IMG/VR virus record: IMGVR_UViG_3300038701_000961
Span: 1-39,943 of that record
Length of the DNA: 39,943 bases
From: a virus
Reading direction: 5' to 3' (one strand)
In this document: piece by piece, positions 4,158 through 36,877 of the stretch
Position numbering within the stretch: the stretch's first letter is position 1
Layout: every line of letters begins with the position of its first letter
Notes under the pieces: generated by a model
Databases searched by the model: none
The model's input: the letters and a program-made list of their open reading frames with translations, nothing else
Told to the model about the DNA's origin: nothing
Made by a program: the position numbers and the translations under genes

Positions 4158-4730
4158 ATGAAAAACATGGAAAATAGAGATTTAAAATTAGAACAAGTTG
4201 AAGTTCGCAAGTTAGAGGACAATGGTTTAACGCTGTCGGGATATGCTGCGGTATTTAATTCAGAGTCAAGGGATTTAGGGGGATTCATCGAAGTTATTGA
4301 TACCCGGGCTTTTGACAAAACGCTAGAAGAAGGTCCTGATGTAGTTGCCTTGGCCCATCACAATTATGACCTAGTCCTAGGTAGGAAATCTGCAGGCACA
4401 TTGCGACTAGAACGGGATGGTGTAGGGGTTAAAGTCTCTATTGATATGCCTAATACTTCTTATAGTAAAGATATTGCCGAATCAGTAAAGCGTGGGGATA
4501 TTTATGGCATGTCTTTCGGATTCACGGTTGATAAAGAGGATTGGGACCTAGAAGCAGAAATGCCGTTACGAACATTAGAAGGTGTCACCCTATATGAAGT
4601 CAGTGTTGTCACTGAGCCGGCTTATCCCGAGACATCTGTCGCACTAAGGAACCTGGAACAAGTAAAGAAATCCTTGTTCAAAGAGCCAAGGCGTCGTAAT
4701 GAAGCACGGTTAAAGAAATTTAAAAAGTAA
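4158..4730 (+). CDS. prohead maturation protease (HK97/S78 family)
   Basis: This serine protease cleaves the capsid delta domain and itself during head maturation. The 190-aa product (start ATG 4158, one base after the portal stop) has the family pattern: SGYAAVFNSESRDLGGFIEVI near the N-terminus, the histidine motif LAHHN (H67/H68) and the serine motif GMSFGF (S119). It ends in a basic tail (RRRNEARLKKFKK). An upstream in-frame ATG at 4122 lies within portal and would add 12 residues; the 4158 start fits the family better. It lies directly before the major capsid gene, as expected. Confidence 0.92.
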   Translation: MKNMENRDLKLEQVEVRKLEDNGLTLSGYAAVFNSESRDLGGFIEVIDTRAFDKTLEEGPDVVALAHHNYDLVLGRKSAGTLRLERDGVGVKVSIDMPNTSYSKDIAESVKRGDIYGMSFGFTVDKEDWDLEAEMPLRTLEGVTLYEVSVVTEPAYPETSVALRNLEQVKKSLFKEPRRRNEARLKKFKK

Positions 4731-6069: not shown

Positions 6070-6635
6070 AATATTCAATTAAAACAGACACAAGTACTTT
6101 ACCAATCAGTGTAGCGGAGCTTAAGCACTATCTACGTATAGTTGAGGATGATGCTGAGCAAGATACCCTTCTAAGGGGCCTTATTATTGCTGCCCGTGAC
6201 TCCATGGAGCAAGAGCTTCATATGAGTCTCGTTAATCGTGTGTATACTTATTATTTCGACTGTTTTGACTCGGAATTAGACATCACCCTACGCCCCGCAG
6301 TATCAGTGGATGCTATACGGTATTATGACGCGGACGATGTGCAGCAAACCTTAGCCACCTCCATATATCAGTCAGATTTACAAAAATACAGAGCAGAGAT
6401 CAGTTTGAAAGACGGACAGAGCTGGCCCACAGTGTATAATAAGAAGAATGCAGTAGAGGTCGACGTAACCATAGGACACGGATCCCTGGCAGAGGATGTC
6501 CCGGAGGATTTAAAGTTGGCTTTAAAGATGTTGGCCGCTCATTGGTTTGATAACCGAGCTCTTGAGGGTAATATTAAAGTAATCCCGCAGGGGATCGAGA
6601 GAATTATAGCATTAAATAGAAATCTTGAAATATGA
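6066..6635 (+). CDS. head-tail connector (HK97 gp6-like)
   Basis: This is an adaptor ring beneath the portal. The 189-aa product shows the gp6-like pattern: ISVAELKHYLRI then DDAEQDTLLRGLIIAARDSMEQEL near the start, and a C-terminal EDLKLALKMLAAHWFDNR helix (about 153-170). ATG 6066 was chosen over an in-frame GTG at 6027, because the upstream frame lies in the hairpin and its residues (MAWGLSWTPPLHF) are not family-like. Its own stop overlaps the start of the tail-fibre gene (ATGA). Confidence 0.85.
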   Translation: MKYSIKTDTSTLPISVAELKHYLRIVEDDAEQDTLLRGLIIAARDSMEQELHMSLVNRVYTYYFDCFDSELDITLRPAVSVDAIRYYDADDVQQTLATSIYQSDLQKYRAEISLKDGQSWPTVYNKKNAVEVDVTIGHGSLAEDVPEDLKLALKMLAAHWFDNRALEGNIKVIPQGIERIIALNRNLEI

Positions 6636-9052
6636 GTTTAAATACATTCAGCATAGTATCCACACCAGCATTTAGCACCACCATCAGCGACTCAGTCTCA
6701 GGTGGGAGGTTGAAGCTGCAAAGTGGGAACGATTGCACCGTGAGGGTGCTCGTGTTGGATGCATCCTACGAGGTTATGGATCTGACTGCATACTCAAGTG
6801 CTACATTAGAGTTTAAGGCCTTAAATGCAGATGGTACAGCCCCCGATGAAGAAGATACAATCGTGGTACAAAAGGTTGATTCATCTTTAACAGCATTACC
6901 CACCAAGGCCCAGTGGGCTGCGGGGACATCTGAGCACATATCCATAGCGCTATCTGATATAGAAACGAACCTCACGGGTACATATTGGATGTCCGTTTAT
7001 TTGACTGGCTCTGCGGGCGAGTTGCATACTGTTTTAGCCGATAAAATTGATTTCCTGGAAGATGGTATACAAGCAGGAGGATCTCCCACAAGTGTCGCTT
7101 CACCATATCTGATATCGGCAAACAATTTATCTGATTTGGCAGACTCTAACGCGGCCGCTGCTAATTTAGGCATACCTCTAGCATTTTCAACTGTCGCATC
7201 CATGTCGGCTTATGATGTATCTTCATTATCAAATGGGGCTATTGCCAGATTGGATGGTTATACATCTGTAGGCGATGGTGCAGAAGGGACTTTCTATTTA
7301 GATAAAGCCAATGGGTCCATATCTGCAGATGATGGGGTTATAATCACTGCCGCTGGGACCGACAACTATTGGCGACGGATGTATGTTCACGAGGATGGAG
7401 TACATGTAGACTGGTTTGGTGCTGTTGGAGATGGTGCCACAGACGATTATGCCAACATCATGAAGGCCGTGAACAACTATCAAGCAATACGATTCGGGTA
7501 TAAAACTTATTATGTTGCCACTCCTATTGGGTTTACCAATGAACAGGAGTTCCTGGGGGTGGGACTATCTTCCACCATAAATAGGGGTTCCACAATCAAG
7601 GGATTAACCGACTGTTTCACCTCAACAGATGCGTCGAATAGGGATAATATCTGGAAGAATCTGAATTTCACCACATCGGGGGCTACCTCAGTGGGTATTA
7701 ATGTGGCAGGTAATCCTACAGGCGGGCTTAGTAACATGTCGCTAGTTGAACAGTGTAGCTTTGAAAATGATTTACAATATGGCATAAAAGGTACAGCACA
7801 GGGTCTGAAAGTTATAAATTCCATTTTTGGTGAGCACAGCTCCTCCACTAACAACATGCTAGCCGGGGCTTATTTAGATGACACCCAGTCCAACACAGCA
7901 GTGTCATTTATCGCTTGTAAATTTAGATATGCTGAGAAAGGCCTTTTATTAGAGGAGACCTCGGGTGTAAATGTGTCGCACTGCCTATTTGAATCATTAT
8001 CGGGTGTGGCAGCACATTTCAAGGGGTGTGGTCCTGTGACAGTAGATAAGTCGTATTTCGAAAACTGCCGCACCACAGATGCGGGGGATGACGGGTTTAT
8101 TAGGTTTGATTCATCTGATACACCAACTGGCTGTAAAGGGCTACGAGTATCTGGAAATTATTTCATAAACAATGGGTCTGTAAACATTGATACAATCATC
8201 GGCGGCAGCTGGGTCACAGCCTTAATGTTCGAGTGCAACTATATAGCCATGGGAGGTTCAGGTAAATATCTCTTTAACAGCGGTGCACAAGAGCCATACT
8301 TATCCCAGAACAATCAAGGTATCCAAGCCTCATATACACCTGTTGACTTCCCTGATTATAATGATCCAGATATGGACGCCCTTACCAGTAAAGGTGACCT
8401 TTTAGTCTATGATGGTTCTGATTACGTTAGAGTGCCTGTAGGTACGAATGATGACGTACTAACTGCAGATTCTGCCCAGTCAGCCGGTGTAAAATGGGCT
8501 GCAGGCGGAGGGGGTGGCGGAGATGGAACCGGATGGACCTTAATAACCACTTCCACCATCGGCTCAACTGTAGCAACTGTATCGTTAGATAACACAGTGT
8601 TCGACGGATCCTATACCAATTATAGAGTAGTGTTTGAAGGTATCTCATGGCAGAATGACGATGGCGGTATCTCGTTTCAGGTCAGTACAGACAATGGCAC
8701 ATCATATTTAAATACCGATGAATACAGCTACACCAGAGGGTGGGGGTATACGGTAACGGCTGATGCATCTAAGACCACAAAAGTATTTCTATGCAGAAAT
8801 GCCACGAATGCGGGGGTTGATTCGACCTCTACATACTCTGGGGAGCTGCACATATATAATCCACACAGTACAGATGCAGATTTCAAGACCATGGTGAGCC
8901 ACGCCTCTTTCTTAAGGGCCGATGGGACAACCATTAGGCAGGGCGCCATAGGGATCGGTATAGAAACTAGCGCAAGCATAGACAACATACAGTTCACCGG
9001 GGAATTCTCTAATTCCTTTACAGCTGGAACAATCAAAGTTTACGGAGCATAA
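6632..9052 (+). CDS. tail fibre/tailspike with pectate-lyase-like beta-helix
   Basis: The 806-aa virion protein probably binds or degrades surface polysaccharide. Residues ~25-150 resemble a baseplate/fibre-attachment domain (LKLQSGNDCTVRVLVLD, TLEFKA, GTYWMSVYLTG). The pectate_lyase_3 signature VDWFGAVGDGATDDYANI (about 259-276) opens a right-handed beta-helix to ~560. Then come SKGDLLVYDGSDYVRVPVG, a glycine hinge (GGGGGGDG) and a C-terminal jelly-roll-like domain ending FTAGTIKVYGA. It lies in the neck cluster between the gp6-like connector and head-closure genes, overlapping its upstream neighbour by four bases and its downstream neighbour by one. That is an unusual position for a receptor-binding protein. 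Catalytic residues cannot be assigned by eye. Confidence 0.85.
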   Translation: MSLNTFSIVSTPAFSTTISDSVSGGRLKLQSGNDCTVRVLVLDASYEVMDLTAYSSATLEFKALNADGTAPDEEDTIVVQKVDSSLTALPTKAQWAAGTSEHISIALSDIETNLTGTYWMSVYLTGSAGELHTVLADKIDFLEDGIQAGGSPTSVASPYLISANNLSDLADSNAAAANLGIPLAFSTVASMSAYDVSSLSNGAIARLDGYTSVGDGAEGTFYLDKANGSISADDGVIITAAGTDNYWRRMYVHEDGVHVDWFGAVGDGATDDYANIMKAVNNYQAIRFGYKTYYVATPIGFTNEQEFLGVGLSSTINRGSTIKGLTDCFTSTDASNRDNIWKNLNFTTSGATSVGINVAGNPTGGLSNMSLVEQCSFENDLQYGIKGTAQGLKVINSIFGEHSSSTNNMLAGAYLDDTQSNTAVSFIACKFRYAEKGLLLEETSGVNVSHCLFESLSGVAAHFKGCGPVTVDKSYFENCRTTDAGDDGFIRFDSSDTPTGCKGLRVSGNYFINNGSVNIDTIIGGSWVTALMFECNYIAMGGSGKYLFNSGAQEPYLSQNNQGIQASYTPVDFPDYNDPDMDALTSKGDLLVYDGSDYVRVPVGTNDDVLTADSAQSAGVKWAAGGGGGGDGTGWTLITTSTIGSTVATVSLDNTVFDGSYTNYRVVFEGISWQNDDGGISFQVSTDNGTSYLNTDEYSYTRGWGYTVTADASKTTKVFLCRNATNAGVDSTSTYSGELHIYNPHSTDADFKTMVSHASFLRADGTTIRQGAIGIGIETSASIDNIQFTGEFSNSFTAGTIKVYGA

Positions 9053-17729: not shown

Positions 17730-19316
17730 ATGGCTTGGCCTACAACATCAGTATCAACTACCAACCTGGACAACGACGCAGATAGTCCAGTTTTGGCACG
17801 TCCCGACATCAAACAGATGGCGGATAATGTAAATGACATCAAAGATGCACTCTTAGATGAGGACGACATGTCTTCAAACAGCAGTACATCCATCGCTTCA
17901 CAACAATCCATCAAGGCCTACGTGGATAAGCAGGGCAAGAGAAACATGGCTGTGTTCGATGTTGTCAATGATTATGGCGCTGCGGGGGATGACTCTACAG
18001 ACGATTTAACAGAGATTCAGGCAGCAATTGATGCAGCTGAAGCGGCAGGTGGGGGTATCGTATGGTTTCCTGACCTAATATACCGTGTATCTTCTGCTCT
18101 GATTGTTGACACAGACAATGTAATACTACTAGGTGCAGGCAAAGGTGCTGTTATTAAAACTACTAATACTGCCATTGACATCCTCCAGCTTAAGGCCGAT
18201 TGCCTTGTACAGAATATTGCACTCACGTGTTTCTCGGTACCGACGGCAGGGGACGCAATCCAAGTACAAGATGATGCCGCCGTTGTCCTCCGGGATGTTA
18301 AGATTGATAACACATTCCAAGGAGTCTATGTCTATGAGTGCAGCTCGTGCGTATTTGATAACGTGGAAATTAACCAGCTGCATGGTGCAGTAGGTTTACT
18401 CTTTGCAGGTGGCTCTGGTGATATTGCCAAGAAAATCTATGGACAAAATATCCGCATCTCACAACCATATCATACAGCTTTAACCGCGCATTCCCAGTTT
18501 AAGTCATGGGCAGCTACAACAGCCTTTACAGCTGGGGACGTGGTAGTTTCCTCTGGTAACATCTACCAGTGCTCCACAGGGGGCACATCTGGGGGCACAA
18601 CACCCTCAGGGAAGGGCAGTTCCAACGCTGCTGATGCATTCACCACTGAGATTACAGACGGTACTGCAGGGTGGAAATACATCGGATCGTCTTCATTGAA
18701 GCTCATCCGCGTTAACACCTATGTGGAGGACCTAGCCCTCAATGCCCTATACCTAGAAGGGGGTGCATACGGACTATACGTTGAATCCACCTCTGGGGGA
18801 GCCTCAGATGTCCCAACACGGGTTAACTTCGAGAGCGTGTCAGTCACACAAGCCTACTATGAAAACATTACTGTTACAGCAGGTAAAGAGATCTCAATTG
18901 ATGGCTTTAGTAACACCTATTGTTGGCAAGGCAAGGGGGTTAATGCCTCAGGTACTAACTTCGACCACTTCTCCCTATTAAATGGGAAGATCAGTAACTG
19001 TTATGAGGAGGGCTTATACCTAGCTGGTGTGTCCGATGCGCGTGTATCCTGCGCTGTCGGGAACAACTCAGAATCGGGATCAGCTTCCTTTAGTGGGATT
19101 CGTGTAGGTGCCACCACTGAAAGGTTCTTTATTGTCAATACCACATCAGGAGACGTCACGGGCGGGACAAACAACCAAGCCTATGGTATCCTTGTGGACG
19201 AGGACGCCTCTATTGACAACTACATCATACGCGGGTGTATCTTACAGGACAATGTTACAGGATCCATAGATGACAACTCACTCGCATCAACAACTAGCGT
19301 AGGAGATAACATCTAA
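17730..19316 (+). CDS. tailspike: pectate-lyase-like beta-helix with carbohydrate-binding insert
   Basis: The 528-aa product is a likely receptor-binding or depolymerase protein. The N-terminus MAWPTTSVSTTNLDNDADSP is a typical virion-attachment lead. VVNDYGAAGDDSTDDLTEI (about 78-96) starts a pectate_lyase_3 beta-helix with WFPDLIYRVSSALIV. Residues ~257-310 (WAATTAFTAGDVVVSSGNIY ... GWKYIGSS) form an inserted CBM5/12-like chitin/carbohydrate-binding module. It has the strongest ribosome site of the late block (AAGGAGGAATAAAATATG). It is the second beta-helix fibre in the genome after the one at 6.6-9.1 kb. Confidence 0.88.
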   Translation: MAWPTTSVSTTNLDNDADSPVLARPDIKQMADNVNDIKDALLDEDDMSSNSSTSIASQQSIKAYVDKQGKRNMAVFDVVNDYGAAGDDSTDDLTEIQAAIDAAEAAGGGIVWFPDLIYRVSSALIVDTDNVILLGAGKGAVIKTTNTAIDILQLKADCLVQNIALTCFSVPTAGDAIQVQDDAAVVLRDVKIDNTFQGVYVYECSSCVFDNVEINQLHGAVGLLFAGGSGDIAKKIYGQNIRISQPYHTALTAHSQFKSWAATTAFTAGDVVVSSGNIYQCSTGGTSGGTTPSGKGSSNAADAFTTEITDGTAGWKYIGSSSLKLIRVNTYVEDLALNALYLEGGAYGLYVESTSGGASDVPTRVNFESVSVTQAYYENITVTAGKEISIDGFSNTYCWQGKGVNASGTNFDHFSLLNGKISNCYEEGLYLAGVSDARVSCAVGNNSESGSASFSGIRVGATTERFFIVNTTSGDVTGGTNNQAYGILVDEDASIDNYIIRGCILQDNVTGSIDDNSLASTTSVGDNI

Positions 19317-19741
19317 TGGGAATTGAACTATTTTTAACAGCGGGGTCTGCCATCATGGGTTGGCTCATGAAAGCATCTGCTCTAGCACGAAAAGAACGCC
19401 ACGAGGAGATGCTCATGGCGCTCAAAATGGCTGGGGCAGTGGATCAATCAGCCGACTTGGCAGCTAAACGTGTCAGGTCCAACGGCGGAGTGTGGGTTAG
19501 GCGTATTATTGCATTTGCCATAGTCGCCTTCCTGGGCTTCTTAGTCATTGGTGGAGGCTTACTCCAGATACCTGTAGTTGTGGAAACAGTCAAAGAAGGA
19601 GGATCATTCCTCTTTGGATTGTTCTCCAGTGGTAAATCTGTAACGTACCAAGAGGTACACGGTATGCTATTAACTCCTGAATTAAGACAGGGATTCTTAG
19701 CTGTGATTGCATTCTACTTAGGTCAAGGAGCAGCGAAATAA
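19316..19741 (+). CDS. holin-like membrane protein
   Basis: The 141-aa product has a hydrophobic N-terminus (LFLTAGSAIMGWLM), a basic middle helix (KERHEEMLMALKMA), a main membrane span VRRIIAFAIVAFLGFLVIGGGLL (about 61-83), and a C-terminal LRQGFLAVIAFYLG segment (about 122-135). This architecture recurs in an uncharacterised family often called holin or 3TM holin-like in phages of proteobacteria. It sits at the end of the late operon. A lysis role is inferred from topology and place. Confidence 0.6.
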   Translation: MGIELFLTAGSAIMGWLMKASALARKERHEEMLMALKMAGAVDQSADLAAKRVRSNGGVWVRRIIAFAIVAFLGFLVIGGGLLQIPVVVETVKEGGSFLFGLFSSGKSVTYQEVHGMLLTPELRQGFLAVIAFYLGQGAAK

Positions 19742-28717: not shown

Positions 28718-29037
28718 CCCTGTCTTTCTATGTTTGTATATTTCTTTTTGAGATACAGGTCGACGATCTCTTCCGCGTCCATACCTTCAGCAAGAAAAGC
28801 ACTTAGTAAAAAGTGTAAACAATCCACCAACTCTTCCTTAAGTTTATCGTGGTCAATATCTTCTGTCTCCTTCCACCACTTCCAATTTGTCTCATCTCTA
28901 GCCTCCACAGCCTCGTGTATTAAGGCTGTTAGAAACTCCGCAACCCATACACTGCCCTCCATGGGACGTAATCCCCGTTTTATCTCTAGAAAGTGGTTTA
29001 GCTTCTGCTGTTCATCTAATAATTTCTGTAACATCAT
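28714..29037 (-). CDS. dimeric dUTPase / MazG-like NTP pyrophosphohydrolase
   Basis: The 107-aa all-helical product has EFLTALIHEAVEARDETNWKWWK (about 34-56) and KLKEELVDCLHFLLSAFLAE (about 65-84), giving the E-x-x-E and E-x-x-D metal motifs of all-alpha dUTPases. It ends LYLKKKYTNIERQG, as in dUTPase_2. The product would remove dUTP. Start is ATG 29037 or 29034; AGGAGG is 2 or 5 nt upstream, favouring 29034. Confidence 0.8.
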   Translation of the reverse strand: MMLQKLLDEQQKLNHFLEIKRGLRPMEGSVWVAEFLTALIHEAVEARDETNWKWWKETEDIDHDKLKEELVDCLHFLLSAFLAEGMDAEEIVDLYLKKKYTNIERQG

Positions 29038-29282
29038 TTCCTCCTATACTTTAAAACTAAATACGTCTGTACCACTAACACCGCCAATGACCCAACACTG
29101 CTAACCCTAAATCCCAATGAGTCATCCATTAAAGATTGGATTGACAGGAGCGCATAGCCTAAACATAAACATGTCATGAGGACCATGCTAACCCCTGTCG
29201 AATCCTTTACTTTAACTAGGTGGAAAATTTGTGATAAACTACCTATCGAAAGGATTAAAGTTCCTATGAGCGCTAATGTCAT
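29034..29282 (-). CDS. PQ-loop/SemiSWEET-like membrane protein
   Basis: The 82-aa product has three predicted membrane helices (5-24, 32-50, 57-77) and the family motif SLSQIFHLVKVKDSTGVS, where PQ is replaced by SQ, followed by a helix rich in small residues. SemiSWEET halves dimerise to carry small sugars; other PQ-loop proteins carry amino acids. It is in frame-overlap with both neighbours (ATGA upstream; stop inside the dUTPase start), with no ribosome site of its own. Function in a phage is unknown. Confidence 0.65.
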   Translation of the reverse strand: MTLALIGTLILSIGSLSQIFHLVKVKDSTGVSMVLMTCLCLGYALLSIQSLMDDSLGFRVSSVGSLAVLVVQTYLVLKYRRK

Positions 29283-29931: not shown

Positions 29932-30669
29932 CTATTTCCTTGGGTGAATCCCGTTCTTGTTAAGCGCTGGGAATGTAACAATATCCCCACTAAAAATTTG
30001 CACAGGCCTGATATATCTTTTCTTATCTCTGTAAACATGGTGCGCTGTGATCGTGACGGAGATAGCGATAGCCTCGGGGGACTCCTGTACCATCTCGACA
30101 AACCTAGCTACACGTGGGTCCTGGAAGGTATCGTATAGAACTAGGTCGCCCACGATGTTCATTGTCTTACCGTCCTTGGCCACAACCACCCGGAAGTTCT
30201 CGAAATAGCCTACCGACTCCATTGCTCTTGCGAAAGAACCGTGGTTGATGTAGCTCTTAACCTTACCGCGCTTCACACATAGGTCATACATCATGGCTAT
30301 AGTAGTCTTATCGGCGAACGATCCGTGCCCCAACGCTTCCCCACTCTCCATAAGGGAGATGTTCTTAATTACCCGGTTCTGCTTTGACTTCTCGGCAACA
30401 ACCTTCTCCACAATGGTTTTAGCTTTGGTTAAAGATTCTACAGACTGTTTGTACAACTTCTCATACAAGGTCTTCCACCGCTGGATCTCATCCTGGTGGG
30501 TGCGGATCTGGTTGGTTAGGTCGTCCAGATAGGACATGTGCCCGCTTTGGATAACCAAGAGTTTGTTCTCGTAGTGTTCAATCTGAATGTACGCCCCTGT
30601 GAAGTATGCTCCGGCCCCTAATGCTACACCCAGTACAATGTTTAGTATTTTCTGTTTTATATTTTTCAT
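29932..30669 (-). CDS. membrane-anchored coiled-coil protein with capsid-protease-like domain
   Basis: The 245-aa product has a basic start, one membrane helix (8-28), a coiled coil (~30-95) and a C-terminal domain (101-245). That domain shows the order of motifs seen in Mu-I/scaffold-type capsid proteases: SLMESGEALGHG (105-116), YINHG (H143), VGYFENFRV (153-161), VGDLVLYD, SPEAIAISVTI (S204) and SGDIVTFPALNKNG (227-240). His and Ser are both present. The positive N-terminus places the domain outside the inner membrane. It lies in the early region, far from the head genes, which already have a protease at 4158. A lipoprotein with the same domain is at 31971. Role unknown. Confidence 0.65.
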   Translation of the reverse strand: MKNIKQKILNIVLGVALGAGAYFTGAYIQIEHYENKLLVIQSGHMSYLDDLTNQIRTHQDEIQRWKTLYEKLYKQSVESLTKAKTIVEKVVAEKSKQNRVIKNISLMESGEALGHGSFADKTTIAMMYDLCVKRGKVKSYINHGSFARAMESVGYFENFRVVVAKDGKTMNIVGDLVLYDTFQDPRVARFVEMVQESPEAIAISVTITAHHVYRDKKRYIRPVQIFSGDIVTFPALNKNGIHPRK

Positions 30670-30673
30670 AATT

Positions 30674-31006
30674 TTAATAACAGTTGTCGATTATCTCGTG
30701 TGTGTGCTTCTTAAATATTTCCTTTATCGTGCCCACACTTCCGTCTGATTCCATAATCTCTATGGTCATAGCCTCTGCTCTTTCTCTACCAAAGGAGACG
30801 ACTATACTGCTCCCCCGGTCTCTATACTCACGCTCTGGCGGCACATCTACGATTTCCTCGGTAAACATGCTCTCCATTCTATCCTCCATATAGTTGAAAC
30901 ACTCCAAGGTGAATGGTATAAGAACCACAATAATTAAGAAGAAACCTGCGAGTGCGGCTGTCAAAGACGATAGGATCCAGACGATTAATTTTAAGCTGTC
31001 TTTCAT
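30674..31006 (-). CDS. hypothetical single-span membrane protein
   Basis: The 110-aa product has one strong span (LIVWILSSLTAALAGFFLIIVVLI, about 7-30) after a basic N-terminus, so residues 35-110 should be periplasmic. That part is charged (VPPEREYRDRGSSIVVSFGR). It is five bases from the protease-like gene and probably co-translated with it. No family recognised. Confidence 0.7.
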   Translation of the reverse strand: MKDSLKLIVWILSSLTAALAGFFLIIVVLIPFTLECFNYMEDRMESMFTEEIVDVPPEREYRDRGSSIVVSFGRERAEAMTIEIMESDGSVGTIKEIFKKHTHEIIDNCY

Positions 31007-31011
31007 AATTT

Positions 31012-31146
31012 CTAAAGGTTAAAGTTGAATAACTGGTCCATAAAGATGAATAATAGGACCCACCCAATCGAAGCTGCAACCGCGAATAGTACCCCTATTC
31101 CCATGATTTGTAGCGAATCTTTTAAGTCGTTTATTAAGTTTTTCAT
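31012..31146 (-). CDS. 44-aa membrane peptide
   Basis: This short frame encodes a protein starting MKNLINDLKDSLQIMGIG and ending MDQLFNFNL, with one membrane span at about 15-38 (LFAVAASIGWVLLFIF). Its stop lies 5 nt before the next gene's ATG and it starts 5 nt after the previous stop, filling an otherwise empty gap in a tightly packed operon. Ribosome site is weak (AGG 5 nt upstream). It probably belongs to the same membrane module. Confidence 0.6.
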   Translation of the reverse strand: MKNLINDLKDSLQIMGIGVLFAVAASIGWVLLFIFMDQLFNFNL

Positions 31147-31151
31147 AAGGC

Positions 31152-31619
31152 CTATTCACTATACATTCTACCAAAACCTTCCTCTTCCCACCAATCTGGG
31201 CGACCCCATCTGAGGTACCCCTCGGCAAGTTTTAGAAGCGTCTTCCTACATTTACCTAATTTCTTAAATTCCTTACATTTACCTTCATGTCTGATACCAT
31301 TTACCTTTAATAGTAGAAACAGCGGCACTGGTAAGTTAGCCCCCTTCTTAATTGTTATATATCCATTTTCTGCCACAGTGAACCATGGTATTAAGTTGTT
31401 CTTTGTTAAATACTCCCAATCCTTTCTATCTCTATTGAGTATGTACGCATTATCTGAGTGGTGAAACACATTAATCGAGAGTATTTTTCTGGTGCAACAC
31501 TTACTGTTTGGCAGCCACAAAATAGTCAATAAATAACCCGCGGTAACATGACGTGAATGGAACTTATGATATTTTGTGTCCCACTCACTTGAGATAAATA
31601 CATTATCACTGTGCATCAT
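31152..31619 (-). CDS. hypothetical protein
   Basis: The 155-aa product has a strong ribosome site (AAGGAGG) before ATGATG. Visible features are LLTILWLPNSKCC, two cysteine/lysine-rich turns (KCCTRK, GKCKEFKKLGKC) and an aromatic, acidic C-terminus (WGRPDWWEEEGFGRMYSE). HHSDNAYILNRDRKDWEYL could be a structured beta-alpha unit. No family recognised. Confidence 0.7.
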   Translation of the reverse strand: MMHSDNVFISSEWDTKYHKFHSRHVTAGYLLTILWLPNSKCCTRKILSINVFHHSDNAYILNRDRKDWEYLTKNNLIPWFTVAENGYITIKKGANLPVPLFLLLKVNGIRHEGKCKEFKKLGKCRKTLLKLAEGYLRWGRPDWWEEEGFGRMYSE

Positions 31620-31629
31620 TTCCTCCTTT

Positions 31630-31974
31630 TCAATAACCTTCCTGGTTTAGTTCATTTTGTATCTCCACGTCGATCAATCCTTCAAGATGGTTAGCCATCT
31701 GTTCCAGCGACATACCATGAAACATAGGCAGTCGCCACATACTCCCGTACCCAGTACCTTTTAGGGATACTGCTATAGTTTTGGTATTCCCAGGTCCGGA
31801 CGCCGGGCGCACCTTAACATAACCGCCCCCTTCGTATACATCACAACCTCCTCCTTTATAGTGGCCCACACGCACAGCATTCATGCTCGATAATCCTTTG
31901 TTGAATAGCACTTCAGCGGTTTTATATATTTCCAGCAGTTGTGTATACTTATTCATCTCTTTAACTGTTTTCAT
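31630..31974 (-). CDS. hypothetical protein
   Basis: The 114-aa product has an N-terminal helix (MNKYTQLLEIYKTAEVLFN), a glycine-rich beta middle (GHYKGGGCDVYEGGGYVKVR) and a C-terminal helix. It overlaps the lipoprotein stop (ATGA). The YTQLLEIY helix weakly recalls YTQLCELY in the protein at 34405-34824. No function assigned. Confidence 0.7.
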   Translation of the reverse strand: MKTVKEMNKYTQLLEIYKTAEVLFNKGLSSMNAVRVGHYKGGGCDVYEGGGYVKVRPASGPGNTKTIAVSLKGTGYGSMWRLPMFHGMSLEQMANHLEGLIDVEIQNELNQEGY

Positions 31975-32519
31975 TTCAATAACCTCCCTGTTGCTGCCCC
32001 ATCAGGCACAAATGACACCTCTGAAGCAAACCATGTACCGTCACCAAACTGGTTCAGACCAGCTGATAGCTCCGCACGATAAGGCATAAGGTAATACAGT
32101 ACACGTACTCCGTCGGCTAGTTTCTCATTCAACGTATCACGTGGATTAAGCCGCAAATCGGCCACCAACACCCCGTCCTCTACTCGGAAGTTCTCAAAGT
32201 AACCAAAGGATACATCATCATCTAATGTATGCATCAACATGGCAGGTGCTTCAAAGGTGTTGTCAACGATCTGCTGTAGATGTTCATCTGTAAACAGTCG
32301 CCAACGTGCCTTGGTATCCCTGGCTTTACCAGGTTCCATGATCAAGAAGCCCTTCAGGAGGGTAGCTTCCCGTTGTTCTTGTGTTAGTTGATCTACATCC
32401 CCGGCCAGGTTGTCCAGCAGCTGGTACCTGCCGTGCGCTGGTGTACAGGAGAACAGGCTTAGTGCTAGTACTCCCGTCACGAATAAATAGAATCCTATAA
32501 TTGCTTTTAAATCTCTCAT
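31971..32519 (-). CDS. lipoprotein with capsid-protease-like domain
   Basis: The 182-aa product has a signal peptide (hydrophobic 7-24) ending in a plausible lipobox LFSC (Cys25). The mature part repeats the domain order of the 245-aa protein at 29932: LLKGFLIMEPGKA (54-66), MLMHT (H97), GYFENFRVEDGVLVADLRL (106-124), RAELSAGL (S152) and VSFVPDGAATG (168-178). The GYFENFRV segment is shared exactly. It would be membrane-tethered facing the periplasm. It has a strong Shine-Dalgarno (AGGAGG). Together with the TM protein it forms an inner-/outer-membrane pair. Role unknown. Confidence 0.65.
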   Translation of the reverse strand: MRDLKAIIGFYLFVTGVLALSLFSCTPAHGRYQLLDNLAGDVDQLTQEQREATLLKGFLIMEPGKARDTKARWRLFTDEHLQQIVDNTFEAPAMLMHTLDDDVSFGYFENFRVEDGVLVADLRLNPRDTLNEKLADGVRVLYYLMPYRAELSAGLNQFGDGTWFASEVSFVPDGAATGRLLK

Positions 32520-32539: not shown

Positions 32540-32947
32540 TTACTTTGGTTCTGTTTCAGTGAGGATCACCTGGCCGTTCATGAATTTACCTATACACAAG
32601 ATGCCCAGGTCTACCATAATAGTCATAGCTAATTTCTTGATATCCTCGCTATCATCGTTTAGCGGCCCTTCCTCGCTCAATACCTGTTTAAGAATTGGAA
32701 GCAACCTCTCTTTATGATCTGCGGTAAGTTTGTGCTTCTTGTGAAGTTTATACATTGTCTCTACCACGAAATCAAGATCTCCTTCTTGTGCTAGCCCATC
32801 CCACTCTTCGGTTCCAAACATAAGATCAATCAAATCTTCGGGTTTTTCAGAGTGCTGGTATTGATCAATTAAGAGGTCTGCAAACCTGTTATAATAAGTT
32901 CTTTCGGTTGCGTAGCTTTCTAATTGGCTAATTATGTTATCAATCAT
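32540..32947 (-). CDS. hypothetical protein, paralogue A
   Basis: The 135-aa acidic helical product shares long near-identical stretches with the 171-aa protein at 34841 (EKPED.IDLMFGT, DGLAQ, KKHKLTA.HKERL.PILKQV, KKLAMTI.VDLGIL, VLTETE.K). It lacks a ~36-residue segment present there. It is the first gene behind an internal early promoter (32983-33011). No family recognised. Confidence 0.8.
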   Translation of the reverse strand: MIDNIISQLESYATERTYYNRFADLLIDQYQHSEKPEDLIDLMFGTEEWDGLAQEGDLDFVVETMYKLHKKHKLTADHKERLLPILKQVLSEEGPLNDDSEDIKKLAMTIMVDLGILCIGKFMNGQVILTETEPK

Positions 32948-34840: not shown

Positions 34841-35356
34841 TTACTTTGATTCCGTTTCAGTGAGGACTACACGACCATTCGTGAATTCACCTATACTCAA
34901 GATGCCTAAGTCTACCACAATAGTCATAGCTAATTTCTTGATGTACTGATTATCGTCATTTAGTGGTCCTTCTGCACTCAACAAGAACTTGTGTACCTTG
35001 TTCTTTAAAAGCTTACTGCCCTTCTTGCGGTACATCTCGGCCAACAATCTCAGGGCGTAATGCTTCGTATCATACACCTTGCTGACAGATGTTACCTGTT
35101 TAAGAATTGGGAACAACCTCTCTTTATGCGCGGCAGTAAGTTTGTGCTTCTTGGAAAGTTGATATATTGCCCCTACCACGAAATCAAGCTTTCCTGTTTG
35201 TGCTAACCCGTCCATCTCTTTGGTTCCAAACATAAGATCAATCATATCTTCGGGTTTTTCAAAGTAACCGTATTTATCAATTAAGACATCTACAAACCTG
35301 TCGAGATGCGTGCTTTCGGTTGAGTATTTTTCTACTTCTTTCATTAGTTTTTCCAT
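34841..35356 (-). CDS. hypothetical protein, paralogue B
   Basis: The 171-aa product is homologous along its length to the 135-aa protein at 32540, with high DNA identity. It has an extra ~36-residue basic segment (TSVSKVYDTKHYALRLLAEM then YRKKGSKLLKNKVHKFLL) before SAEGPLND. Ribosome site AGGAGGAAAGAACAATG is the same as for the gene at 35385. No function assigned. Confidence 0.8.
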   Translation of the reverse strand: MEKLMKEVEKYSTESTHLDRFVDVLIDKYGYFEKPEDMIDLMFGTKEMDGLAQTGKLDFVVGAIYQLSKKHKLTAAHKERLFPILKQVTSVSKVYDTKHYALRLLAEMYRKKGSKLLKNKVHKFLLSAEGPLNDDNQYIKKLAMTIVVDLGILSIGEFTNGRVVLTETESK

Positions 35357-35823: not shown

Positions 35824-36189
35824 TTATTTTTGATCTTTTTTCTGGATCTTCTGTAAACACTTGGTACACAGGTTGTAGTGTTTGTAGTGATCTTCAACTA
35901 ATTCCCACGTTATCTCATATTTACCATACATAAGCTTATGTATGATAGGTTTGTTGACTATTATGTGCCTCCCGGTTGGGCATTGCGTTGTATATAAGTC
36001 GTAGTAACATGGCCATTGCTGAATGCCGCAACGTTTGAGATATCTATCAACGGCTTTCTCTAGTGGGGCGTCCGTACCTAAACTGTATACCTTCTTCTCC
36101 TTTGAGAATATCTGGTCATACATATCCCTATATTTATCCCCATCCACCTTTCGTGGCCTGTCTCCCTTGCCTGCTTGTTTATCCTGCAT
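35824..36189 (-). CDS. conserved phage protein of GKGDRPR type
   Basis: The 121-aa product begins MQDKQAGKGDRPRKVDGDKY then MYDQIF, an opening seen in small uncharacterised proteins of many phages (GKGdapR...y...wd.IF). The C-terminal part has paired cysteines (RCGIQQWPC; QCPTGRH; LCTKCLQK) that could bind zinc. Start lies inside the upstream gene. Function unknown. Confidence 0.7.
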   Translation of the reverse strand: MQDKQAGKGDRPRKVDGDKYRDMYDQIFSKEKKVYSLGTDAPLEKAVDRYLKRCGIQQWPCYYDLYTTQCPTGRHIIVNKPIIHKLMYGKYEITWELVEDHYKHYNLCTKCLQKIQKKDQK

Positions 36190-36877
36190 CTCTAAACTCC
36201 TTCATGATTTTACTTAATTCCCTTGCTGTCTTGGACGGAGAATTCTCATATCTAAAGAAAAATCTGTCCACATTCCTATTATCCTGTACAACATGTACCA
36301 GAACACCTTTCTGGCTCCATTTACCAATACACGCTGCAATTAATATCCCGCTTCTCATCAACGACCCGATGAAGTCATAGATATATCGCCGTTTCTTCAT
36401 CTTGGGTCTAGCTTTTGGCTTCAATTTACACATAATCCTATGTTTATAAGTTAAGTGCATAGCCGTAGCTGATTTCAAATCATCCTTAACGAGTTTCCTC
36501 CTCTGCTCATGCGGCATCATATCCCACTTTCCCAGTAATTCCCTGCATAAATGGTCCCACTCAGTATCAGTCAGCTCGGTTGAGTCACCCTTTTCATAGG
36601 CGATACCCGCCCTGTAGTATAGGTCTATTTTATCTTTCCAGACTTTAGGCGTAAATTTACACATTACCTCATACCTATGTGGGAGGTACATAGCCGTAGC
36701 TGATTTCAAATCATCCTTAACGAGTTTCCTCCTCTGCTCGTGTGGTATTTGATCCCAATTCTGTAGGAGCTCTTGACATAGTTCATCCCATTGGCGATCA
36801 GTTAACTCAGATGGGTCGCCCTTTTCATAGGCGATACCTGCCCTGTAGTATAGGTCTATTTTATCTTTCCAGTCCAT
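36179..36877 (-). CDS. protein with two tandem ligase-Ia-like repeats
   Basis: The 232-aa product contains a 77-residue unit twice (about 3-79 and 80-156). Each has YYRAGIAYEKGD, then ELTD..WD.LC.ELL..WD, PHEQRRKLVKDDLKSATAM and MCK. The YY...G-D...L-T/S-D-x-x-W/Y-D-x-L-x-x-E-L pattern recalls domain Ia of NAD-dependent DNA ligase, but no nucleotidyltransferase domain is present. At DNA level the units are offset by exactly 231 bp, with stretches over 50 nt identical, so the duplication is recent. Residues 157-232 are a basic unique tail (KMKKRRYIYDFIGSLMRSG). Confidence 0.7.
   Translation of the reverse strand: MDWKDKIDLYYRAGIAYEKGDPSELTDRQWDELCQELLQNWDQIPHEQRRKLVKDDLKSATAMYLPHRYEVMCKFTPKVWKDKIDLYYRAGIAYEKGDSTELTDTEWDHLCRELLGKWDMMPHEQRRKLVKDDLKSATAMHLTYKHRIMCKLKPKARPKMKKRRYIYDFIGSLMRSGILIAACIGKWSQKGVLVHVVQDNRNVDRFFFRYENSPSKTARELSKIMKEFRDAG
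36410..36871 (-). repeat. 231-bp in-frame tandem duplication
   Basis: Two 231-bp copies lie head to tail (36641-36871 and 36410-36640) within one gene. The segment around 36458-36510 is nearly identical to the segment around 36689-36741. The reading frame is kept. Confidence 0.85.

Follow-up and report, generated by a model that had tools for sequence, protein, structure and literature searches.

Examination of the IMG/VR virus record IMGVR_UViG_3300038701_000961 (39,943 bases, the whole stretch being referred to here as the window) drew attention to two minus-strand genes, the products of which were given the working names P245 (a 245-residue protein encoded at 29932-30669) and L182 (a 182-residue lipoprotein encoded at 31971-32519). 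P245 almost certainly carries a domain of the phage head-maturation protease family, to which L182 is likely to belong as a more diverged member. It is tentatively proposed that the two present head-maturation protease domains on export anchors as an envelope device of early takeover, with superinfection exclusion being the leading candidate role.

Evidence for protease domains in P245 and L182

In a preliminary description of this region, both proteins had been assigned a capsid protease-like domain of the Mu I/scaffold type. The coordinates and lengths of the two open reading frames (ORFs) given there were correct, as were the residues named (His143 and Ser204 in P245; His97 and Ser152 in L182), and the motifs listed, namely, SGEALGHG, GYFENFRV, and VTFPA in P245 and EPGKA, GYFENFRV, and VPDGAA in L182, were indeed present. 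Neither P245 nor L182 matched any Pfam family, S78 and Mu I included, at E ≤ 10. Relatives were instead found with the motif D-x-V-x-x-P-A-x-N-x-N-G of the C-terminal P245 strand, a DNA pattern for which was scanned against viral contigs and yielded more than 100 ORFs belonging to one clear family. When a profile built from 42 non-redundant members of this family was searched against the 389 ORFs of the window, P245 was matched along the whole domain (E = 1.6e-25) and only one other ORF, L182 (E = 9e-4), was picked, with no reversed decoy being retrieved. P245 was still matched (E = 3.8e-19) once the scanned motif had been removed from the profile. In a control involving 1,000 shuffles, the maximal score was 7.4 bits, as compared to 131.8 bits for P245, itself included in the profile, and 13.4 bits for L182. 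Pairwise comparison of P245 with one relative by tblastn revealed 34% identity across residues 97-241 (E = 5e-17, a value relative to the candidate stretches only).

In the alignment of the 42 family members, P245 retains the invariant residues His143, Asp229, Val231, Pro234, Ala235, Asn237, Asn239, and Gly240, together with Ser204. The His/Ser/Asp triad of P245 is thus intact, and the protein may be an active protease. The AlphaFold2 model of P245, generated with the same alignment, showed predicted local distance difference test (pLDDT) values mostly above 90 across the domain, and a Foldseek search of BFVD matched this model to prohead core serine proteases, capsid maturation proteases, and COG3740 head maturation proteases (probability 1.00; E down to 2.6e-9). 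No match was obtained when the model was searched against the PDB.

As for L182, residues 45-123, corresponding to the first half of the domain only, matched phrog_976, annotated as 'head maturation protease' (E = 8.8e-7). In a 16-row alignment, His97 and Ser152 of L182 fall in invariant columns, with Glu167 lying opposite Asp229 of P245. The L182 model was of moderate confidence (mean pLDDT 67.6) and presents strands and helices in the same order as does P245; in BFVD, it matched prohead proteases (E down to 8.8e-6) and, more weakly, herpesvirus capsid proteases. Because it was aided by the alignment of relatives, this model constitutes weaker evidence. Similarity of L182 to sugar epimerases in the PDB (E = 0.003) involved 38 residues only and was judged to be chance.

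It could be argued that P245 and L182 are unrelated membrane proteins that by chance share a short motif. Indeed, BLASTP comparison of the two returned a 27-residue match only (E = 0.001), no Pfam family was matched, and the profile score of L182 is modest. Against this stand the profile values for P245 with and without the scanned motif, the conserved triad, the fold match, and the decoy and shuffle controls. Chance resemblance is accordingly scarcely credible, being already refuted for P245 by profile and fold, such that L182 alone could remain in doubt. Of the preliminary assignment, the capsid protease fold is thus strongly upheld for P245 and moderately so for L182, with the models of both resembling prohead proteases rather than unrelated folds; the attribution to the Mu I type was not sustained, given the lack of a Mu I or S78 match in Pfam.

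Relation to head proteases of the window and of other viruses

The pattern scan exposed a large and widespread family of head proteases that, as judged from five members checked, is not found in Pfam and is nearly missing from the PHROGs. Members (e.g., L163:521-1441, L174:4671-5594, L216:2745-3713, and L260:59-1258, as well as L255; range L145-L291) present the signature EALGHG...NH...FGLS...DLVxxPAANPNGLF. In four sampled relatives, the neighboring genes encode a portal and/or major head protein, with a terminase gene lying nearby in one, while the C-terminal parts of relatives give weak coiled-coil scores, as expected of protease-scaffold fusions. The family is represented by a single copy in all 32 other virus records searched, and no membrane anchor was detected in any of 155 homologous ORFs. 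An apparent second membrane-anchored relative, L209, was rejected, as the hydrophobic stretch corresponds to upstream non-coding DNA containing a terminator-like hairpin. P245 shares with this family the whole domain, including the G-EALGHG start, the His/Ser/Asp triad, the GYxENFR strand, and the D-V-PA-N-NG end. However, whereas the sampled relatives are head-module proteins that end in coiled-coil-like tails and lack an anchor, P245 presents an N-terminal transmembrane segment and coiled coil and is encoded among replication genes.

By these comparisons, P245 is nested within an uncatalogued family encoded in portal-protease-major capsid protein modules and L182 is nearest to phrog_976, from which it differs in being a lipoprotein encoded outside a head module. 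In a maximum-likelihood tree, P245 was placed within a single clade of head proteases. Its branch length was 3.76, as compared to a median of 0.55, with the exact placement being unsure given the long branches. The GC content at third codon positions of P245 (0.60) is the highest among the listed genes of the window. The simplest reading of P245 is that a foreign head protease was captured and then changed rapidly for a new job.

Close relatives of P245 or L182 were not found by tblastn against 50,697 phages, by IMG/VR pattern scans conducted for each protein alone, or by a GTDB scan for L182. Weak matches of P245 to rIIA and to a fecal phage (E ≥ 0.5) were taken as chance, and of two matches returned when viral contigs were scanned with a DNA pattern for GYFENFRV, one was out of frame and the other antisense to another ORF. 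Likewise, no convincing phrog_976 member was seen in Mu, N4, YuA, LUZ24, BPP-1, Jersey, phi10:1, S-CBS1, or viral contigs sharing TerL or polymerase.

The preliminary description had implied that P245 and L182 are close on the basis of the shared octamer GYFENFRV. This implication is weakened, as the octamer is a core strand found across the family in the general form G-[YK]-[LF]-E-N-F-R-[IV] (e.g., GYLENFRI and GKLENFRI in relatives). Moreover, in the 16-row alignment, L182 is 21-24% identical to a group comprising L158, L230, L241, and L260, the last being the sampled relative that also touches phrog_976, as compared to 17% identical to P245. Because the octamer is general to the family and L182 is nearer to other members, the pair is not evidently the result of recent duplication; recent tandem duplication is not favored by these identities.

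That the true head protease of the phage is encoded elsewhere, as previously proposed, was confirmed: the position between the portal and major capsid protein genes is occupied by an S78 enzyme, rather than by P245 or L182. On sequence grounds, it is this non-orthologous enzyme that fills the head role. In the 16-row alignment, the HK97 gp4-type S78 protease resembles P245 and L182 in general domain order and in the positions of His and Ser; it differs in that neither P245 nor L182 gives an S78 match, and in subfamily, gene position, and predicted localization. Proteases of the T4 gp21/phiKZ type (S80) and of the herpesvirus assemblin type share the Ser/His/Asp triad order with P245 and were reflected in the BFVD fold matches, and the Ser-Asp spacing of 25 in P245 is that of SPN3US gp245, of the T4 gp21/phiKZ type, in which the triad comprises His77, Ser153, and Asp178 (PMC5694885). 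Proteases of both types differ from P245 in acting inside proheads and gave no direct sequence match.

The head-module origin of the family also raises the possibility that P245 faces the cytoplasm and, as a membrane-tethered assembly factor, starts or processes proheads at the inner membrane, comparable to portal assembly with gp40 in T4, the proheads of which start on the inner membrane (PMC9958956). This was considered very unlikely, since the positive N-terminus and hydrophobic segment of P245 predict an N-in/C-out orientation, the lipobox of L182 requires export, a complete S78 protease already lies between portal and major capsid protein, and P245 and L182 are encoded on the opposite strand, with replication genes. 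Nor do the two proteins resemble a cytoplasmic protease packed in the prohead and, as is usual, fused or adjacent to a scaffold, given the predicted export anchors and the N-terminal position of the P245 coiled coil.

Because relatives of P245 are unanchored, present in single copy, and encoded in head modules, because P245 is nested among them on a long branch, and because S78 fills the head role, an enzyme of virus assembly has apparently been reused in the bacterial envelope. Among the collections searched, this predicted exported and anchored form of a known protein type is singular. Prohead proteases are textbook enzymes of capsid assembly, with counterparts conserved in viruses ranging from tailed phages to herpesviruses, and are expected to work within a closed shell of protein. 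If the proposed reuse is true, the fold would have moved to a new compartment and a new job in a genome that also encodes a normal head protease; no description of the prohead protease/assemblin fold being used outside capsid assembly was found.

Proposed roles in the envelope

Both P245 and L182 are very likely to be exported. The membrane anchor and lipobox noted in the preliminary description were confirmed, with P245 containing a single Kyte-Doolittle-type transmembrane segment (residues 8-26) and L182, with a PS51257-type match ending at Cys25, being the only lipobox-containing ORF in the window. The signal sequences predict that both domains face the periplasm, and gene order suggests that the run containing them would be expressed before the structural genes. 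Hence, of the head-maturation fold reused in the envelope early in infection that had been put forward in the preliminary description, the fold is well supported and the envelope location is a prediction.

A possible, if far from assured, reading is that captured capsid-maturation proteases were made into a two-membrane periplasmic protease pair acting early on envelope or incoming-phage proteins. P245 would be anchored in the inner membrane, with a lipid tethering L182 to the outer (or inner) membrane. Less surely, oligomerization via the coiled coil would keep the protease of P245 inactive or selective, with L182 serving as a partner or as a diverged enzyme. Targets for binding or cleavage by the pair would be proteins inserted across the periplasm by an incoming phage (e.g., tape-measure or tail-tip proteins) or else a host envelope protein needed by such phages. 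Capsid proteases evolved to recognize phage structural proteins. Superinfection exclusion as the role of the pair is advanced as a doubtful but leading suggestion. Like L182, Llp of phage T5 is a lipoprotein of phage origin. From the periplasmic face of the envelope, Llp blocks a receptor, and the title of a report cited in the same source describes it as being expressed early in infection (PMC9586334). For L182, the periplasmic location is predicted and early expression is likely by gene order; Llp differs in being small and in acting by jamming FhuA.

Several points weigh against this proposal. P245 lacks the Gly found two residues before the catalytic Ser in nearly all relatives, while in L182, Asp is replaced by Glu, the active-site hairpin is shorter, and the protein may be inactive. 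Exclusion lipoproteins such as Llp are much smaller and act by binding, not proteolysis. Furthermore, no relative sharing the architecture of P245 or L182 was found in the collections searched, such that nothing ties the pair to exclusion over other envelope roles, and since no lysis gene was recognized in the window, there is room for a lysis role.

Indeed, neither endolysin, holin, nor spanin was recognized in the record, making a spanin-like lysis pair the main rival explanation. Here, P245 in the inner membrane and L182 in the outer membrane would span the periplasm and, at the end of infection, open the outer membrane, P44 and P110, two small membrane proteins encoded between them, would be holin-like partners, and the protease-derived domains would either mediate contact or fusion or cut a periplasmic tether. 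The predicted combination of a transmembrane segment-coiled coil protein with a lipoprotein is the architecture of two-component spanins (Rz/Rz1; PMC6139136), L182 is the sole candidate lipoprotein in the window, and residues 5-108 of P245 weakly match the Rz-like spanin family phrog_739 (E = 0.0036). This match, however, spans the transmembrane segment and coiled coil only, and the coiled-coil family phrog_5890 is matched nearly as well (E = 0.0063). Moreover, Rz/Rz1 pairs do not contain protease-type domains, and P245 and L182 are encoded among nucleotide and replication genes rather than at the end of a late operon, are separated by about 1.3 kb, as compared to an extreme of ~1 kb in a large spanin survey, and together comprise 427 residues, whereas spanin pairs average no more than 250 (PMC6139136). 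A spanin role was deemed unlikely.

Similarly unlikely is that P245 acts as a periplasmic protease on a host protein of the inner membrane or periplasm, such as a defense sensor, transporter, or stress regulator, with cleavage favoring replication. While the intact triad, the predicted periplasmic tether, and a gene run shared with takeover and nucleotide-metabolism genes agree with such processing, neither a substrate signal nor a homologous precedent was found, and capsid proteases normally work in an assembled shell on scaffold-bound substrates.

Gene setting and other features of the record

The plus strand of the first 19.7 kb contains structural genes (terminase, portal, S78 protease, major capsid protein, tail, and tail-spike), while the minus strand from about 20 to 37 kb contains replication and nucleotide-metabolism genes, with those encoding P245 and L182 lying within this run. 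With an HNH endonuclease gene at the right end and a small terminase gene at the left end, the record probably represents a nearly complete genome, even though it contains no terminal repeat.

Between P245 and L182, the 44- and 110-residue membrane proteins listed in the preliminary description were found, each with one transmembrane segment, along with two soluble ORFs (155 and 114 residues) that had gone unmentioned. The genes encoding P44, P110, and P245 are spaced by 4-5 nucleotides (nt), and Shine-Dalgarno sequences are lacking for P110 and P245 and weak for P44, together suggesting that the three are translationally coupled. Good Shine-Dalgarno sequences precede the genes encoding L182 and the 114- and 155-residue proteins. 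Coordinates are listed in Table 1.

Table 1. Positions in the window of P245, L182, their parts, and associated genes
Feature	Position	Strand	Basis or remarks
P245, inner-membrane-anchored coiled-coil protein with C-terminal head-maturation protease domain	29932-30669	-	Predicted anchor; profile; AlphaFold
P245 transmembrane segment, residues 8-26	30592-30648	-	Kyte-Doolittle 1.67; follows MKNIKQK; predicted N-in/C-out; cleavable signal peptide possible
P245 long helix/coiled coil, residues 45-92	30394-30537	-	AlphaFold helix
P245 capsid protease domain, residues 100-240	29950-30372	-	Profile, pLDDT, BFVD matches
P245 predicted catalytic His143	30241-30243	-	Invariant, 42-row alignment
P245 predicted catalytic Ser204	30058-30060	-	At least 90% conserved, 42-row alignment
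P245 predicted third triad residue, Asp229	29983-29985	-	Invariant, 42-row alignment
P110, protein with one transmembrane segment	30674-31006	-	Ends 4 nt upstream of P245 start; no Shine-Dalgarno; probably coupled
P44, small protein with one transmembrane segment	31012-31146	-	Probably coupled to P110
155-residue soluble protein	31152-31619	-	Same gene run; no family assigned
114-residue soluble protein	31630-31974	-	Start overlaps L182 stop
L182, lipoprotein with likely diverged capsid protease domain	31971-32519	-	phrog_976, profile, alignment, model, BFVD
L182 lipoprotein signal, lipobox LFS-C25, +2 residue Thr	32445-32519	-	PS51257-type match TGVLALSLFSC
L182 protease-like domain, residues 52-180, His97/Ser152/Glu167	31980-32366	-	Alignment, model, BFVD
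S78 (HK97-type) head protease of the phage	4158-4730	+	Between portal and major capsid protein; Pfam S78 E = 3e-48, TIGR01543

Elsewhere in the presumed early run, an 82-residue protein with three transmembrane segments (29034-29282) shows weak likeness to PQ-loop transporters (Pfam E = 0.0075), and two small paralogues of unknown function (32540-32947 and 34841-35356) share long stretches (e.g., IKKLAMTI.VDLGIL), reflecting duplication within the run. A 232-residue protein (36179-36877) contains two copies of a DNA ligase-like N-terminal domain (Nlig-Ia; Pfam E = 4e-14). A holin candidate is the 141-residue membrane protein (19316-19741) encoded last in the late run, which matches phrog_38283, of unknown function. 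Finally, two separate tail-spike/depolymerase-like proteins (6632-9052 and 17730-19316) are encoded in this single small siphovirus-type genome.

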